Shown here piece after piece: positions 10,202-16,223 of a stretch of DNA of 64,000 bases. The translations under genes were made by a program, and so were the position numbers. Each line of letters starts with the position of its first letter. Position 1 is the first letter of the stretch. The stretch covers positions 434,001 through 498,000 of the forward strand of contig PNMM01000001.1 of assembly GCA_013823625.1 (NCBI GenBank), read 5' to 3'. Below the pieces are notes generated by a model. The model saw only the letters and a program-made list of their open reading frames with translations. It searched no databases and was not told the origin of the DNA. This DNA comes from Microbacterium sp. Lineage in GTDB: Bacteria; Actinomycetota; Actinomycetes; Actinomycetales; Microbacteriaceae.

Positions 10202-10861
10202 CTATCGAACGCGAATCCCCCCGCGTTGCCAGAGAGTGACGGCAGCGACGCGGGGATTCGCGTTTTCTCCCGTGTCGAGCCCGAGGGCCAAGAAGAGTCG
10301 ATTGAGCATTGTTTCGACCGCCCGCACCGAGGTGCCTCTGGCTTCGGCCAGCGCCCGAGTCGACGCGCCTTCAGCCAAGAGGCGCAACACCTCTGCTTGC
10401 GCGGCGGTCACTGACGGCACGTCACCGTCGGCCTGGTGAGAGCGAAAGCGGTCACTGTCTCTTGCTTCTCCGCTGATCGCACGGTGCACGGCATCGGCGA
10501 GGTCGTCGATACGCGCGAGTTGCGACTTCACGAGATAGACCGCGCTCGACGGAATCTTGTCGGGGTTCGACACAGCGAGCTCAGGCGAGCGATGTGAGGT
10601 CAGTACGACGAGGCCGATCCACGGGAACTCGTCCGCGATGGTCCGCAATAGCTCAGCGCCCGTATCTGTCGTGCCGAAGTTCAAGTCGCTAATGACCGCG
10701 TGCGGATCCCCCGTGCGCACGGCATCGAGAGCGTCGGTCACCGTCGTTGCCGTGGTCACCGAGAACCCCTTGGCGGCGAGCCCACCGCTCACGAGTGACA
10801 GCGTGAACGTGTCATCGTCGGCGACAACGACGCGCAACAGTCGAGACTCTTCGTCACTCAT
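10202..10861 (-). CDS. LuxR-type response regulator
   Basis: A 219-residue response regulator. The receiver domain spans residues 8-130 with the acidic pair ADDD, phospho-acceptor Asp59 (VISDLNFG), Thr switch residue in VVLTSH and Lys in YLVKSQ. Residues about 150-210 hold a LuxR-type helix-turn-helix (VTAAQAEVLRLLAEGASTRALAEARGTSVRAVETMLNRLFLALGL). Its ATG overlaps the stop of the histidine kinase gene by eight bases, so the two are translationally coupled and almost certainly a cognate pair. The hybrid kinase also has its own receiver. The last codons form an inverted repeat with codons further upstream, an intragenic terminator. Confidence 0.88.
   Translation of the reverse strand: MSDEESRLLRVVVADDDTFTLSLVSGGLAAKGFSVTTATTVTDALDAVRTGDPHAVISDLNFGTTDTGAELLRTIADEFPWIGLVVLTSHRSPELAVSNPDKIPSSAVYLVKSQLARIDDLADAVHRAISGEARDSDRFRSHQADGDVPSVTAAQAEVLRLLAEGASTRALAEARGTSVRAVETMLNRLFLALGLDTGENANPRVAAVTLWQRGGIRVR
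10208..10264. terminator. Bidirectional intrinsic terminator inside the regulator's last codons
   Basis: AACGCGAATCCCC (10208-10220) and GGGGATTCGCGTT (10252-10264) are a perfect 13-bp inverted repeat, extended inward by GCGTTGC/GCGACGC after a CC bulge. On the plus strand it is followed by TTTTCTCC, so it can end the SSB transcript; on the minus strand it lies within the last codons of the response regulator gene. Confidence 0.75.
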
Positions 10862-13541
10862 CGTCTACCCCTTCGGCCGATCGATGTTCACGAAGGGTAT
10901 CGCGAATACTTGTCAAGAGTTGGCTCGTCGTGAAGGGCTTGGCGATGAATCGCGAAATGCCGAGGCCGATCGCTGCGGTCTCGGGCCCACCGGCGGTGAA
11001 CCCGCTGGCGGCGATGATCGGGATGCGCGGGTGGTGCTCTTCGAGATAGGCGCTCGTAGCGGCCCCATCCATGATCGGCATCATCATGTCGGTGATGACG
11101 AGGTCAACCACGTGGTCGCCGCTCTCGATCAGATCAATCGCTTCGCGACCGTTGCTCGCTGAGAGCGTGCGATACCCGTGTGATTCGAGCGTGACCGCAG
11201 CCACACGGCGAATGGTGTCATCGTCATCGACGATGAGGATGAGTTCTGAGTCGCCGCGGGGCACCGAGTTCCGTGATTCGGCGAGAGGAGCCTGGTCTCG
11301 CACGACGTGCTCGCCAACGGGCAGCCCGACGAGAAAGCGCGCACCGTGGCCAGGCTCGCTGTAGACCTGCATGAAGCCACCATGGCTGCGGATGATCGCG
11401 AGCGACGTCGCCAGCCCGAGGCCGGTGCCTTTGCCCGGTGGTTTGGTCGTGAAGAACGGCTCGAAGATCTTCTCTTGAACCTGAGAGCTCATGCCGTGCC
11501 CCGAGTCTTCAACGCCGATGACGATGTACCTACCCGGTGCGGCGGAATGGCTGACAGAGAGGTAGCCCTCGTCGATGTCGAGTTCGTTTGCGGTGACCGT
11601 CAGGCGCCCGCTGCCCTCCATTGCGTCACGGGCATTGATGGCCAGGTTCACCAATACCTGCTGCAGTTGAGTGGGATCTCCGATGGTCGCTGACAGGTGC
11701 GGGGCTCGATTGACGGTGAGCTGGATGCCCTCCGGAAGCATGTCGCGGGTGATGGCCACGAACTCATCGACGAGACGGTTGACATCAACATCGATGCGTC
11801 GACCGTCGACGCCGCGCACAAATGAGAGCACTTGGCGCACCATGTCTGCCCCGCGCTTCACGGCGGTTTCGGTCGAGGCGAGCATGTCGCGACGGTGCGC
11901 ATCGTCTTCGTCGAGGGCCAGTAACTGTACCGACATCAGGATCGGGGTGAGCACGTTGTTGAGGTCGTGGGCGATGCCTCCCGCGAGGGTGCCGAGCGCT
12001 TCCATGCGTTCAGCCCGCAGTCGAGCATCCTGTTCACGGCGCCACTCGGTGATATCGCTATTGACAGCGAGAATCAGGGTCTGTTCACCGTCGGGGTTCG
12101 GAATCAACTGCCACCGACAGTCGACGACGAGAGGGCGGCCGTCGCGTGCCACTTGATTGATTTCGTCGGAGAAGTATCCGTCTCGCAAGGTGATCGCCGA
12201 GGCGTGATCGAGTTGCGTTGTGTCGTTGTAGATCAGCTCGCTGACGCGGCGCCCCATCGCCTCGTCACGTGACCATCCGTACAGATCTTCGGCCGCTTTG
12301 TTCCAGAAGTGCACGCGGTAGTCGAGGTCGCGCACAATGATGGCGTCTCGAGCGGCGTCGAGAAGTGCCGCTTGTTGTTCGACTTTGGCTTGCGCGTGGC
12401 GCGCAATGGCCCGGGCGCGTTCGTCGTCGGTGACATCGCGCAGGTAGATCGCAAGGCCGTCGTTAGTCGCAAACGCGGTGCACTCGATCCATTGGCCTGG
12501 CGCGAACATGACTCCGCGATACGCACCGCGCTGTTTCGTCGCCAGTGCGCTGGCGAAGCACTCTCGAAAGCCCTCTCCATCGTCACCCGCGAAGAGGTCG
12601 TCGAGTGTCAGAGTTACCACGTCACTTTCGGCTCTGTGCGCCAGGTCAATGGCGTGCTGGTTGGCGAAGATGATCGAGCCGTCGGTCGCGGTGAAGATAA
12701 TGCCGTCGGCGATCGAGTTGAGGGTCAGGCTGAGTCGTGCCTCGAGAGCCCTCTCTCGTTCACGGGCCGCTGCCATGTCAGAGACATCCCAAATAGCACC
12801 GTAGGCGCGCATGACGCGGCCGTCAGAATCGCGCTCAGCTTCACCGATGGTTCGAACAGTGAGGCGCTCGCCGGTCGTCGAGAACATGGTCTTCTCGACC
12901 TCGAACGGGGCGCCCTCGGTGAGGCACTGATGCACGAGCGATTCCATGACCGCGCGGTCGTGATCGGCCATCCGCGCCCAGGCGAGCTCAGTGATGTCAG
13001 TGAGAGTCGGGTCGATGTCGAGAATCACCCGAGCACCGAGCGACATCGTGACGGCTTCTGTCTCGGCATCAACTGACCACCCCCCGAAGCGCGCAAGCCG
13101 GCCCGCCAGCCGCACAAGGTCGTCGCTCTGCCGCGCTTCGACATCGTGACGCTCGATTGCGGTCATGTTGATCGAGGTGCCATACACCCCCACGACCTCA
13201 TCGCCGATGCGCAGCGGCAGCAGTGTGACCTCGGCGACAAACGGTTCGCCGCTCGGGGTCGTGCCGGTGCCGCGGTACCGCGCTGCTTCGCCCGAGAGGC
13301 TTCTCGCAATGGCAGCCCGAATCTGTTCGGGATCGGTCGAGCGAGATGAGGCGCCAAAGGGTCGGCCGATGATCTCATGCTCAGCGTGACCGAGCGAGCT
13401 GCACAAGTGGGCGTTCGCCATCTGCAGAGTTCCCTCAGCGTCGATGACGAATGCGGCATCAGGGCTGTCACGCGTCGCAATGCGCAGGGCATGCACGAGC
13501 GTTCGGAGCTCGAGCGGCGCTTCTGACGCTGATGTCGTCAC
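10854..13541 (-). CDS. Hybrid sensor histidine kinase with four PAS-like domains
   Basis: An 895-residue soluble kinase with no membrane segment. In order: PAS-like domains at about 18-130, 145-257, 265-378 and 390-500 (the last with [15 protein letters not shown]), a HisKA domain with His525 in [13 protein letters not shown], an HATPase domain with N-box Asn636, DSGHGMS and GTGLGLATS, and a C-terminal receiver with phospho-acceptor Asp818 (VITDMMMP). It should sense a cytoplasmic signal, autophosphorylate and pass phosphate to its own receiver or to the LuxR-type regulator with which it overlaps. Its GTG start overlaps the stop of the upstream receiver gene (GTGA). The four PAS domains suggest redox, light or small-ligand input, but no cofactor residue can be assigned. 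Confidence 0.9.
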
Positions 13542-13936
13542 GATGACCCCGACACTACTCCGGCCTGCGTCGCGAGCAAGCGGCCCACGTGGGCGACCAG
13601 ATCATCAAGCTCAATGGGTTTACGAGCGAAAGCGCAGAGCGGCCCGAGCACATCGGCGGGTGGCTGCGACTCACCACTCAAGACCAGCACCGCAACGCTC
13701 GGGTCGAGTTCGCGAAGAGCGGCGAGGGTGCTGTGAACCGAACCCCCCGGCATGTTGACATCGAGTACGACGAGTCTCGGGTGATCATCGCGAGCGATCG
13801 CGACCGTCTCGGTGGCGTCGACCGCTTCTCGCACCTCGTAACCGAGGCGAGTGAGCGCCATACGCAGAACTCCGCGCACGAGGGCATCGTCATCCGCGAC
13901 GAGCATCGTCGTGCGCACAGCCTCTGGCGCGCTCAT
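13538..13936 (-). CDS. Single-domain response regulator (receiver only)
   Basis: A 132-residue stand-alone receiver: acidic ADDD near residue 15, phospho-acceptor Asp59 in VVLDVNMPGG, Ser in VLVLSGES and Lys in FARKPIEL. There is no output domain, so it probably acts as a phosphate shuttle or by protein contact, most likely with the hybrid kinase whose GTG start overlaps its stop. The ATG is supported by a -10 box TACACT six bases upstream, so this gene starts a leaderless operon of receiver, kinase and LuxR regulator. Confidence 0.85.
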   Translation of the reverse strand: MSAPEAVRTTMLVADDDALVRGVLRMALTRLGYEVREAVDATETVAIARDDHPRLVVLDVNMPGGSVHSTLAALRELDPSVAVLVLSGESQPPADVLGPLCAFARKPIELDDLVAHVGRLLATQAGVVSGSS

Positions 13937-13942
13937 GCCTGA

Positions 13943-13948
13943 AGTGTA
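13943..13948 (-). promoter_or_regulatory. -10 box of the leaderless receiver-kinase-regulator operon
   Basis: TACACT on the minus strand, six bases before the ATG at 13936. It lies in the 52-base gap between the receiver gene and the upstream membrane protein gene. Confidence 0.45.
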
Positions 13949-13988
13949 CGGCGAACGAGAGGTCGCGAGAGGGTCAACCCGCGCCGAC

Positions 13989-15377
13989 TCATGGTGAGGC
14001 GGGTTGGGGCGCTGCGACGTCTTCGCCGGCGATGCGGTCAAGGTCACGGGAGATCGACCGCACATGGTCGAGAACCGCGGTTGCGAGTTCTCGGGCCTGA
14101 GTGTCGGTCGAGTCGCCGTTCGAATGAAAGTTGAGGGCCATGATGCAGGCGGCGATCCGCCCTTGCACGGGGCCGTGCATGAGGTCAGACAGTCGTTGAC
14201 GCTCACGAGCGACAAACTGCTCGTTGAAGGCCCGCTGGGCAGCGAGCTCGGCGCGCAGCACCGCAAGGCGAGCATCGGCCTCGGTGTTCGCATCGGCCAT
14301 GACGATCGCGGAGTAGTACATCGCGCTCGCGGTCGTGAGGCTGATGGCGAGCAACGGAACCACGAGCATCCCGTGCCACGTGATCGGGTCGATTCCGCTG
14401 TTGAGCATGAGGTAGCTACTGACGCCAATGCTCAGCGCAAGGGCGATGCCGTTGATACGTTGGCCCTGCGTGGCGAGCAAAGAGGGTCGCACTGCTGCGA
14501 CGACGGTCGGCACAAGGCCGAGCACCAGACCTGCCGCTGCGGTCGACACCATCAACTCGAGTGCAGCAAGGGGCCCAAAGATTCGCCACACGTCGAAGAG
14601 AACGAGCACGACCGTTGATCCGGTCACGAGAGCGGCCGAAAGCCAGGGGAGGCGTGGCGGCACGTCGAGCGCTCGGCTCAGGCCGGCGCGGGTCATTGCA
14701 ACCGGGGCAACCGGATCGTCGGCAGACTCCAGCAGGTCGGCCGTGTGGTCGTGAAGTCGTGACAGTCGCAAGCTCAGCTCAGCCACCGAGGCGCGGTCGA
14801 GCGACTCGCGACTGGCCTCGAGACTGCACTGTAGGTCGCTCAGCGCGGGGGCAAGAGACTCTGCGACCGCATTGCGCAACTGCTGTTGAATAAACGCACG
14901 CGACACCTCCGTGTGCGGATGCTCATTCTCCAACTCAAACTCGGTGACGTCGAGGGCACCCAGCACGGCCCGTCGGTGTTCGAACTGGGCGACGGCGTAC
15001 ACCATTGCTGGCAGCCATACGATGCTCACGAGAAGCCAGATGGCGATGCGCGACGCGAACGCAGGATCGACGCCCGCAATGCGTTCGGCAATCACGCCCG
15101 CGACAAAGCCCCGGGCGACGGCGGCTAGTGCCCACACGGTAAACACCGTGGAAAGGGGCATGAGCGTGTTTCGTCGGCGAGCGATCGCTCCGCCGAGCAG
15201 GATGATGCTGCCGGCTACCAGGTGTTGCGCGGCCGCTGACACGAGCGGCCACCACCACTCGGGGTACGGAGTCGTCGACTCTTGCAGAAGCACGAGCAGT
15301 GTCGTGGGCGGCAGCAGCCCAACAAGAAACAACCAGTGAGCCGCCCAGGGGCCACCGAGAGCTTCACGAAGGGTCAT
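13989..15377 (-). CDS. Membrane protein with kinase-like phosphoacceptor helix but no ATPase domain
   Basis: A 462-residue protein with four predicted helices in residues 10-130, a long cytoplasmic coiled segment (about 150-225, LSRLHDHTADLLESADDP), four more helices in about 240-355, and a C-terminal helix ERQRLSDLMHGPVQGRIAAC. That last motif matches the HisKA_3-type dimerisation/phosphoacceptor helix (ExxRLxxxLHDxVxQ-like) with His401. The protein ends 61 residues later, with no N, G1 or G2 boxes, so it cannot itself bind ATP in the usual way. It lies just upstream of the receiver and hybrid kinase genes, which suggests a phosphotransfer or scaffold role. It may instead be a decayed kinase. 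Confidence 0.7.
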   Translation of the reverse strand: MTLREALGGPWAAHWLFLVGLLPPTTLLVLLQESTTPYPEWWWPLVSAAAQHLVAGSIILLGGAIARRRNTLMPLSTVFTVWALAAVARGFVAGVIAERIAGVDPAFASRIAIWLLVSIVWLPAMVYAVAQFEHRRAVLGALDVTEFELENEHPHTEVSRAFIQQQLRNAVAESLAPALSDLQCSLEASRESLDRASVAELSLRLSRLHDHTADLLESADDPVAPVAMTRAGLSRALDVPPRLPWLSAALVTGSTVVLVLFDVWRIFGPLAALELMVSTAAAGLVLGLVPTVVAAVRPSLLATQGQRINGIALALSIGVSSYLMLNSGIDPITWHGMLVVPLLAISLTTASAMYYSAIVMADANTEADARLAVLRAELAAQRAFNEQFVARERQRLSDLMHGPVQGRIAACIMALNFHSNGDSTDTQARELATAVLDHVRSISRDLDRIAGEDVAAPQPASP

Positions 15378-15740
15378 GGGCGGCTCTGCCTCTGCTCTCG
15401 TCTAGGCCACGTCGGGCCAACCACTCAGGATTCGCTCACCCTGCCACACAAAGACGAGCGGCCGCTCTTGGTCTCACCCGAAGAGACCAAGAACGACCGC
15501 TCACGTCAGCGACTCAGATTCGACCCGAACGAATCTGACGCGCTGACCACGTGCGAGCTCTCGGTGATCCCCCGACCACCGCTCGCCAAGTGTTCCTAGT
15601 GAATGATGCTTCGGGCATCCGACCCTCGCAAGTTACGCGAGCGGCTGGTGTTCGCTATTCGAATGGCTCAGCAGAGAGCAGAGTGAGCGCCCTAGAATCG
15701 GCCGGTGGTCGCACGATGCGATCGGGATGCGGAGCCGGTG
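15378..15740. other. Longest gene-free interval of the window
   Basis: These 363 bases lie between the divergent starts of the membrane protein and a lipoprotein. No plausible coding frame is seen. The middle (15456-15641) is filled by five consecutive hairpins, annotated separately. The right edge holds the lipoprotein promoter (TAGAAT at 15693-15698). Confidence 0.7.
15456..15641 (+). ncRNA. Candidate structured non-coding RNA with five hairpins
   Basis: Hairpin 1: GAGCGG 15456-15461 with CCGCTC 15497-15502, a 4x4 internal loop, then TCTTGGTCTC with GAGACCAAGA around loop ACCCGAA (15476-15482). Hairpin 2: GTCAGCG 15505-15511 with CGCTGAC 15541-15547, a 3x3 internal loop, then CAGATTCG with CGAATCTG around the same loop ACCCGAA (15523-15529). 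Hairpin 3: GCGAGC with GCTCGC (15553-15586) and GGTG with CACC around ATCCCCCGAC. Hairpin 4: GATGC-TTCGG-GCATC (15605-15619). Hairpin 5: CTCGC-AAGTTAC-GCGAG (15625-15641). The plus strand is preferred only because it puts C-rich segments in the loops, as in the actinobacterial 6C-type RNAs; the strand is not proven and no clear promoter was found. Tandem terminators are the main alternative. Confidence 0.4.
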
Positions 15741-16223
15741 ATGAGCGAGGTGCCTGTGGCGCGACGACGAGTGACCCTCGCCGTGGCGGCCGTAGTGACC
15801 ACGCTGGTGCTCGCGGGCTGCGCCCCGACTGCCGACACGCCGCAGCCAACTCCATCAGCGACGCGCACGCCCACACCCACGCCGACCCCCACAGAGATTC
15901 CGGAGCTCGTCGAGGGCGGCACGGCGGGCCAGAACAGACCCTTCGTCGAGTTGGTGATCGGCGAGCTGCTGGCGAGCAATCCTGAGCCCGCGAGCCTGCA
16001 GATCATCGACACCCTCGTGGCCGGGGGTTTCGATCGCGCGGCGATGCAAGTCACAGAAGACACGACGCGTGTGGGCAATCGCGCCGACTCGATTCTGTTC
16101 TCGATTCTCATTGACGGCGAGTGCCTGCTCGGGCAGGTTGCCGGCGGTGCGGTGGCAACCTCTCTCGGTGACGTTCTCGGCACCGGCCGGTGCCTGGTGG
16201 GGCGCACGCTCTCTCTAGACTGA
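15741..16223 (+). CDS. Small secreted lipoprotein, DUF6993-like
   Basis: A 160-residue lipoprotein: n-region VARRRVT, hydrophobic stretch and lipobox LVLAGC, then a Pro/Thr linker (PTPTPTPTEIPE) and a compact domain with two Cys (DGECLLGQ, TGRCLVG) that may form a disulfide. The layout fits the DUF6993 proteins of Microbacteriaceae, function unknown. The ATG at 15741 has GGAG six bases upstream and gives a normal signal peptide. An in-frame GTG at 15705 lies exactly six bases after a TAGAAT box, so either a leaderless longer form or a 36-base leader is possible. The ettA gene follows after four bases but has its own promoter box. Confidence 0.7.
   Translation: MSEVPVARRRVTLAVAAVVTTLVLAGCAPTADTPQPTPSATRTPTPTPTPTEIPELVEGGTAGQNRPFVELVIGELLASNPEPASLQIIDTLVAGGFDRAAMQVTEDTTRVGNRADSILFSILIDGECLLGQVAGGAVATSLGDVLGTGRCLVGRTLSLD
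16216..16221 (+). promoter_or_regulatory. -10 box of leaderless ettA
   Basis: TAGACT, overlapping the end of the lipoprotein gene, followed by six bases and the ATG at 16228. It gives ettA a transcript of its own that starts at the start codon. Confidence 0.45.

Follow-up and report, generated by a model that had tools for sequence, protein, structure and literature searches.

Comparison with related genomes points to a conserved gene for a structured RNA between two divergent genes in this stretch of Microcella DNA. It was recognized as such in Microcella alone; two other genera show related arrangements next to the same neighboring gene. We favor the reading that the RNA gene encodes a stand-alone small RNA (sRNA) of about 150 nt, which would be transcribed on the minus strand, starting near 15596 and ending near 15446, under an IclR-family regulator bound near -61, and we give this reading a probability of roughly 55%. 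Comparison supports the conserved RNA structure, the favored strand, and the layout of promoter and operator.

The window, by which we mean the whole 64,000-nucleotide stretch that was analyzed, comes from a genome of 2.45 Mb in the genus referred to here as Microcella. With the start codons adopted in this analysis the intergenic gap spans 15378-15704, or 327 bases, and not the 363 given in the preliminary description. A blastn search matched the gap in 17 of the 99 genomes searched (the window's own counted), all within the genus, and the kinase-like and DUF6993 genes flank the match at 17/17 loci. The gene ettA comes next in 16 of these, the contig at L005 stopping before that point. The kinase-like gene belongs to a row of four signaling genes on the minus strand (10202-15377), which encode the kinase-like protein without a recognized ATPase domain, a receiver protein, a PAS hybrid kinase and a receiver-like protein. 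The DUF6993 gene apparently has no leader. The positions of all features are collected in the table.

Table. Features of the gap and its flanking genes. Positions are those of the window; hairpins 1 to 5 keep the numbers of the preliminary description.
Feature	Position	Strand	Remarks
Kinase-like gene, probable membrane protein with H-box HGPxQGR	13989..15377	-	downstream of the RNA; ATPase domain not recognized
Predicted small RNA, about 150 nt	15446..15596	-	alignment A2, covariance model R1; ends placed from promoter and hairpin positions, 3' end uncertain
Third hairpin of the RNA (hairpin 1)	15456..15502	-	loop UUCGGGU at 15476-15482; possible terminator, tail GUCUUUGUGUGG; helix 5
Second hairpin of the RNA (hairpin 2)	15505..15547	-	loop UUCGGGU at 15523-15529; helices 3 and 4
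First hairpin of the RNA (hairpin 3)	15553..15586	-	loop GGGG, outer stem; fold, alignment, helices 1 and 2
-10 box CATCAT	15603..15608	-	spacer 17 nt; CANNNT in 25/25 copies at 17-18 nt; overlaps hairpin 4
-35 box TTGCGA	15626..15631	-	TTGCNN in 25/25 copies; inside hairpin 5
Palindromic putative operator ATTCGAATAGCGAAC (RTTCG-N5-CGAAY)	15650..15664	-	centre about -61 from predicted start; same place in 25/25 copies
Probable -10 TAGAAT of the DUF6993 gene	15693..15698	+	by eye
Divergent DUF6993 gene	15705-16223	+	Pfam DUF6993 match

The preliminary description saw five consecutive hairpins in the gap, of which three (1, 2 and 3) belong to the RNA. Hairpins 4 (15605-15619) and 5 (15625-15641) are present in the window but overlie the conserved -10 and -35 boxes, respectively, and are not kept: the two occur together in 0 of 24 other copies, and a different stem of at least 5 bp lies in that stretch in 6/24. 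The promoter boxes beneath them and their lack of conservation rule out a single RNA of five hairpins. The identical 7-nt loop ACCCGAA (plus strand) attributed to hairpins 1 and 2 was recovered with the positions and loops as described; their arms of 20 and 18 nt are 90% and 89% complementary, and counting G-U all 20 pairs of hairpin 1 form on the minus strand. Hairpin 3 is likewise real and conserved, but its loop is CCCC on the plus strand and GGGG on the minus strand, and not the C5 first proposed; its 3' side is unpaired and G-rich in most aligned copies. The region 15450-15660 folds more stably than dinucleotide-shuffled sequence on both strands (z of -7.00 on plus and -6.74 on minus), with 0/200 shuffles equally stable on either. 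TTCGGGT/ACCCGAA occurs at 8 sites in the window, and only in hairpins 1 and 2 does it close a perfect stem of at least 9 bp; hairpins with such stems and loops of 3-9 nt number 9 in the window.

Evidence for selection on RNA structure comes from alignment A2, in which the 17 loci, read on the minus strand, yield a consensus of 40 pairs and from which covariance model R1 was built. It had been argued that stems that differ around loops that agree are what such selection would give, and a covariance search for compensatory substitutions in relatives had been proposed as the check; these substitutions were found, with change on both sides at 23/40 stem pairs among the 17 sequences (shuffled mean 11.0; 0/500 shuffles as high). 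Of 680 cells, 94.7% are paired, against 28.8-52.4% when the partner column was slid. Two-sided change cells (68 vs 18.4 shuffled) and the covariation score (0.352 vs 0.178) were each equaled in 0/500 shuffles, and further pair types (45 vs 40.1) in 16/500. Seven of the nine inner pairs of the second hairpin (15505-15547) carry two-sided changes, and 99.7% of cells pair in the helix of hairpin 1.

Of the 26 Microcella genomes, R1 matches 24, all with E values of 1.2e-11 or lower; in the other two, G003 and G017, the matches are weak and partial (E 0.08 and 2.7). Both UUCGGGU loops are kept in 24/24 copies, with closing pairs C-G, G-C and A-U, while the loop-to-loop distance varies between 46 and 50 nt, with all lengths in that range represented. 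There is no kept reading frame, each of the six frames being open in 4-10 of the 24 copies; this and the variable loop spacing rule out a coding function. One genome, G021, holds a second copy (L079:1501-1617) with hairpins 3 and 1 kept and the middle hairpin absent. An operator and a promoter accompany this copy as well, but what lies ahead of it is the end of a yaeQ gene, so that it leads into no gene; a GAF-LuxR regulator gene also adjoins it.

Among 398 genomes of the family, R1 matched 26 at E<=0.01, 10 of Microcella and 16 others. The 16 loci in the latter (L043-L058) were rejected as the same element, there being no kinase-like, DUF6993 or ettA protein match nearby. Nine fall in genus g32, and 8 of these nine are of one single-hairpin type. 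In eight g32 genomes (L044, L045, L046, L048, L049, L051, L052, L053) the hairpin reads GGGTTCGGACCCG-UUCGGGU-CGGGTCCGAATCCC or nearly so, mostly with a TTGACA-like box upstream, and at L044 and L045 it lies near what we take to be a purD-like gene. The best match outside the genus, L043 (g32, E 1.8e-8), is a pair of UUCGGGU hairpins a short way past a mechanical ORF, perhaps tandem terminators; L056 and L057, inspected by eye, look like chance matches inside genes. A scan under strict filters of 396 genomes of the order, some of them in the family, gave a single genome at E<=0.001, the window's own, and a pattern scan of named genomes returned 12 stretches, 10 of them in actinobacterial records and two (L021, L022) apparently chance occurrences in coding sequence, as judged by eye.

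Upstream of the hairpins a fixed register, RTTCG-N5-CGAAY, 18-19 nt, TTGCNN, 17-18 nt, CANNNT, is found in 25/25 copies (24 Microcella and L079); the pattern was drawn from the 17 aligned loci and L079 and then held in 7 more. The positions of the boxes place the predicted 5' end near 15596, at a conserved GGAACA, and the centre of the palindrome near -61, which we take to be the position of a class I activator. It is this position that would make the regulator an activator and not a repressor. A LexA or ClgR box was set aside, since the spacing of the palindrome appears not to suit their consensus. According to PMC8222616, PcaR of C. glutamicum binds GTTCGC-N3-GCGAAC, and GTNCG-N5-6-CGNAC is the consensus for one group of IclR-family sites. 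Measured against that consensus as quoted there, 16/25 copies fit strictly and 9/25, the window's included, are off at one outer base, and by motif type the palindrome is thus a putative IclR-family operator.

The long-form exact palindrome TGTTCGCNNNGCGAACA occurs at 12 places in 10 of 199 family genomes. Three of these (L167, L173 and L176, in three other genera) lie at the start of CoA-transferase genes, the one at L167 within a mechanical ORF yet ahead of its conserved domain. This is where a PcaR-like site would be expected, which we count in support of the IclR-type reading, and the three sites together make up a likely PcaR regulon of the family. For finding additional sRNAs the palindrome was of little use: among 11 of the 12 sites (L170 left out), CGGG-loop hairpins lie downstream only at L168 and L177, both beside kinase-like genes. 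The window's own genome has another exact palindrome, TGTTCGCAAAGCGAACA, in an intergenic stretch next to a TetR-type gene (L174:1501-1517; contig 1 at 191833). The palindrome core, searched in both orientations, was not found in the literature of one open library.

We propose the following sequence of events. An IclR-family regulator would bind the palindrome near -61 and switch on the weak promoter TTGCGA-N17-CATCAT, leading to minus-strand transcription from about 15596 to about 15446. The resulting RNA of about 150 nt would fold into three hairpins, the last of which probably ends the transcript, so that its predicted 3' end falls after hairpin 1. The G-rich loops GGGG, UUCGGGU and UUCGGGU would form the probable contact surface, most likely base-pairing with other RNAs at C-rich stretches (CCCC, ACCCGAA), the alternative being that they hold a protein. 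What we infer is transcription itself, the IclR type of the regulator and its role as an activator, the position of the 3' end, and that the RNA acts in trans. Going further is speculative: it is doubtful, though conceivable, that this is a new Microbacteriaceae RNA family, found both next to a degenerate sensor-kinase gene and in a further copy at another site, in which a metabolite-sensing IclR-type regulator turns on an sRNA that presents the invariant UUCGGGU, on different stems, to one dedicated partner. That partner, whether RNA or protein, would recognize the many UUCGGGU hairpins found elsewhere in these genomes as well.

The strongest competing explanation, which we regard as possible though clearly less probable, is that the hairpins form the 5' leader of the kinase-like gene, transcribed from the same minus-strand promoter, with a pause or stop at hairpin 1 and regulated read-through (attenuation). 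From the end of hairpin 1 to the ATG of that gene is 78 nt. The encoded protein has no match in Pfam or NCBIfam; near its C-terminus it carries an HGPxQGR box whose H, G, P, Q, G and R are invariant in 7 aligned sequences (the window's included), with no ATPase domain following, and which resembles a histidine-kinase phosphoacceptor motif. Of the 26 genomes of the genus, the 24 that have the RNA are also the 24 that have the gene, a distribution that a cis leader predicts equally. In G003, which is 99% complete, both are absent while ettA and DUF6993 are kept, again as a leader would have it. Their joint absence from G017 says little, since that assembly is 81% complete, also has no ettA match, and may just not include the locus.

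Relatives of the kinase-like protein occur outside the genus in 5 of 249 family genomes, at 25-31% identity, and at three of these five loci (L161, L162 and L163, in two other genera) UUCGGGU or UCGGGU hairpins lie upstream of the related gene, with a DUF6993 match further upstream at L162. These arrangements, read from sequence, fit a leader as well as they fit a linked sRNA. At L161 AATCTTTTT comes directly after the UUCGGGU hairpin, which makes a textbook terminator on the strand of the RNA, and so strong a terminator before the related gene speaks against a leader. In the window hairpin 1 has the stem of an intrinsic terminator but a weakly U-rich tail, unlike the strong U-tract at L161. 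Averaged over the copies, T content in the 14 nt after hairpin 1 is 0.27 by simple count and 0.23 from the folded stem ends, and most of the 25 copies have a weak U-tract or none, which would permit read-through and thus speaks for a leader, or for another way of ending. Against a leader, the consensus of the 17-sequence alignment shows no obvious alternative pairing. There is also the additional copy in G021, with no gene for it to lead into, which we count in favor of a stand-alone RNA. Overall, we weight the stand-alone sRNA at somewhat under twice the leader.

Beyond the kinase-like gene, L163 and L164 (840-1120 in each, minus strand) hold a second unit with the palindrome TGTTCGC-N3-GCGAACA, followed at L163 by two hairpins with CGGG-type loops; then, at both loci, comes a strong hairpin whose loop is GGGG and whose tail contains T. 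This unit is perhaps another RNA of the same kind.

Quite improbable, in our view, is that the hairpins are tandem intrinsic terminators whose shared loop is simply the one this family prefers, although the preliminary description had allowed that terminators might explain part of the pattern. In support of that suggestion, UUCGGGU proved to be a favored hairpin loop in the family. A 27-nt hairpin model with this loop (R2) and a control with a permuted loop (R3) were each searched against 199 genomes of the family. Among the matches listed at E<=1e-4, R2 found 63 places and R3 9; removing 12 R2 places (training hairpins, the element itself and the g32 look-alikes) leaves 51 vs 9, a ratio that is rough, as UUCGGGU hairpins were the source of the R2 stems and each genome contributes its own count for an orthologous site. 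Genomes with any match at E<=0.05 number 121 for R2 and 89 for R3. Several of the 30 R2 loci fetched are placed like terminators when judged by eye. The identity of the loops is therefore in part a family habit, though the loop is kept in every copy of the RNA, and its invariance may reflect hairpin stability rather than pairing. What tells against terminators in the gap itself is that the flanking genes are divergent, so that no gene ends there, that hairpins 2 and 3 have no T-tract, and that the conserved promoter points into the hairpins.

Two further groups of UUCGGGU hairpins were seen in this survey. Hairpins with GTGCCC stems at L093, L094, L097, L098, L104 and L106 are probably one conserved terminator; at L093, L094 and L097 they stand beside a presumably MazG-like gene, and others of the group share further neighbors by their ORF starts. 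Two tandem UUCGGGU hairpins occur at L050:1443-1535, and the gene after them we take to be aspartokinase-like.

Very unlikely is an RNA on the plus strand, whose C-rich loops (ACCCGAA, CCCC) would bind ribosome sites of mRNAs in a 6C-like fashion. In its favor, C-rich loops are classically used for pairing, the plus-strand fold is also far better than shuffles, and T content past hairpin 3 on that strand (0.38) is higher than in the minus-strand tail. The two strands make different predictions for single changes that keep a pair, which appear on the minus strand as G-U if the RNA is minus and as A-C if it is plus. Over 24 copies, minus-strand stem cells include 34 G-U vs 7 A-C, beside 682 Watson-Crick and 45 other, although the cells are not independent, the species being related; by hairpin the counts are 17:2 (hairpin 1), 9:4 (hairpin 2) and 8:1 (hairpin 3). 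On the plus strand the G-U cells would be mismatches, and by eye no comparably conserved promoter lies upstream on that strand in the 17 loci. The minus strand is favored because G-U exceeds A-C and the promoter layout points that way, which makes the loops G-rich (UUCGGGU, GGGG) and not C-rich. That the element acts as DNA, as a cruciform or as protein-binding inverted repeats, is scarcely credible: most aligned copies do keep the stem of hairpin 1 well even at the level of sequence, but the G-U asymmetry and the compensatory changes around invariant loops are features of RNA.

Altogether, these comparisons describe a conserved structured RNA gene, lying below every Rfam threshold, in a high-GC family. 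They define a promoter and a putative operator precisely enough to name the class of regulator to test, and reveal a family-wide excess of UUCGGGU loops that may reflect a terminator preference or a shared binding site. At the gathering level Rfam finds two tRNAs in the whole window; inside the gap, all that appears up to E 10 is microRNA families with scores far short of their thresholds. Searches of one open library returned no paper titled on this RNA, on the UUCGGGU loop or on an IclR-driven sRNA, and nothing relevant by title for Microcella and small RNA.

Among known systems, the RNA resembles 6C RNA (background from PMC6789036) in being actinobacterial and intergenic, with hairpins in a row and loops rich in one base; it differs in that 6C loops are C-rich, whereas the Microcella RNA has three hairpins with loops that are G-rich on the favored strand. 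The loose likeness to 6C RNAs suggested beforehand did not hold, and this assignment was rejected: RF01066 gives no match in the window at the gathering level and none in the gap up to E 10. A 6C scan of the genus found 0/26 genomes over the cut-off and one below it, which says little, as 14 controls also gave none over the cut-off (C. glutamicum falling below it). With ANTAR-target RNAs it shares a tandem pair of hairpins with matching loops, and it lies near two-component genes. ANTAR targets, as defined in PMC8164766, need 6-nt loops with A1 and G4, and the 7-nt UUCGGGU in 24/24 copies excludes the Microcella hairpins by that definition. In its operator type and spacing the promoter resembles IclR-regulated promoters such as those of PcaR in C. 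glutamicum; the Microcella site differs in preceding a noncoding RNA.

The multi-hairpin sRNAs CsrB and RsmZ titrate a protein, with GGA as the motif and a CsrA-like partner. Like them, the Microcella RNA displays one repeated loop motif on different stems, the motif being UUCGGGU and not GGA. With trans-encoded sRNAs it has in common, by comparison, a conserved structure with compensatory change, a predicted promoter of its own and no coding sequence.
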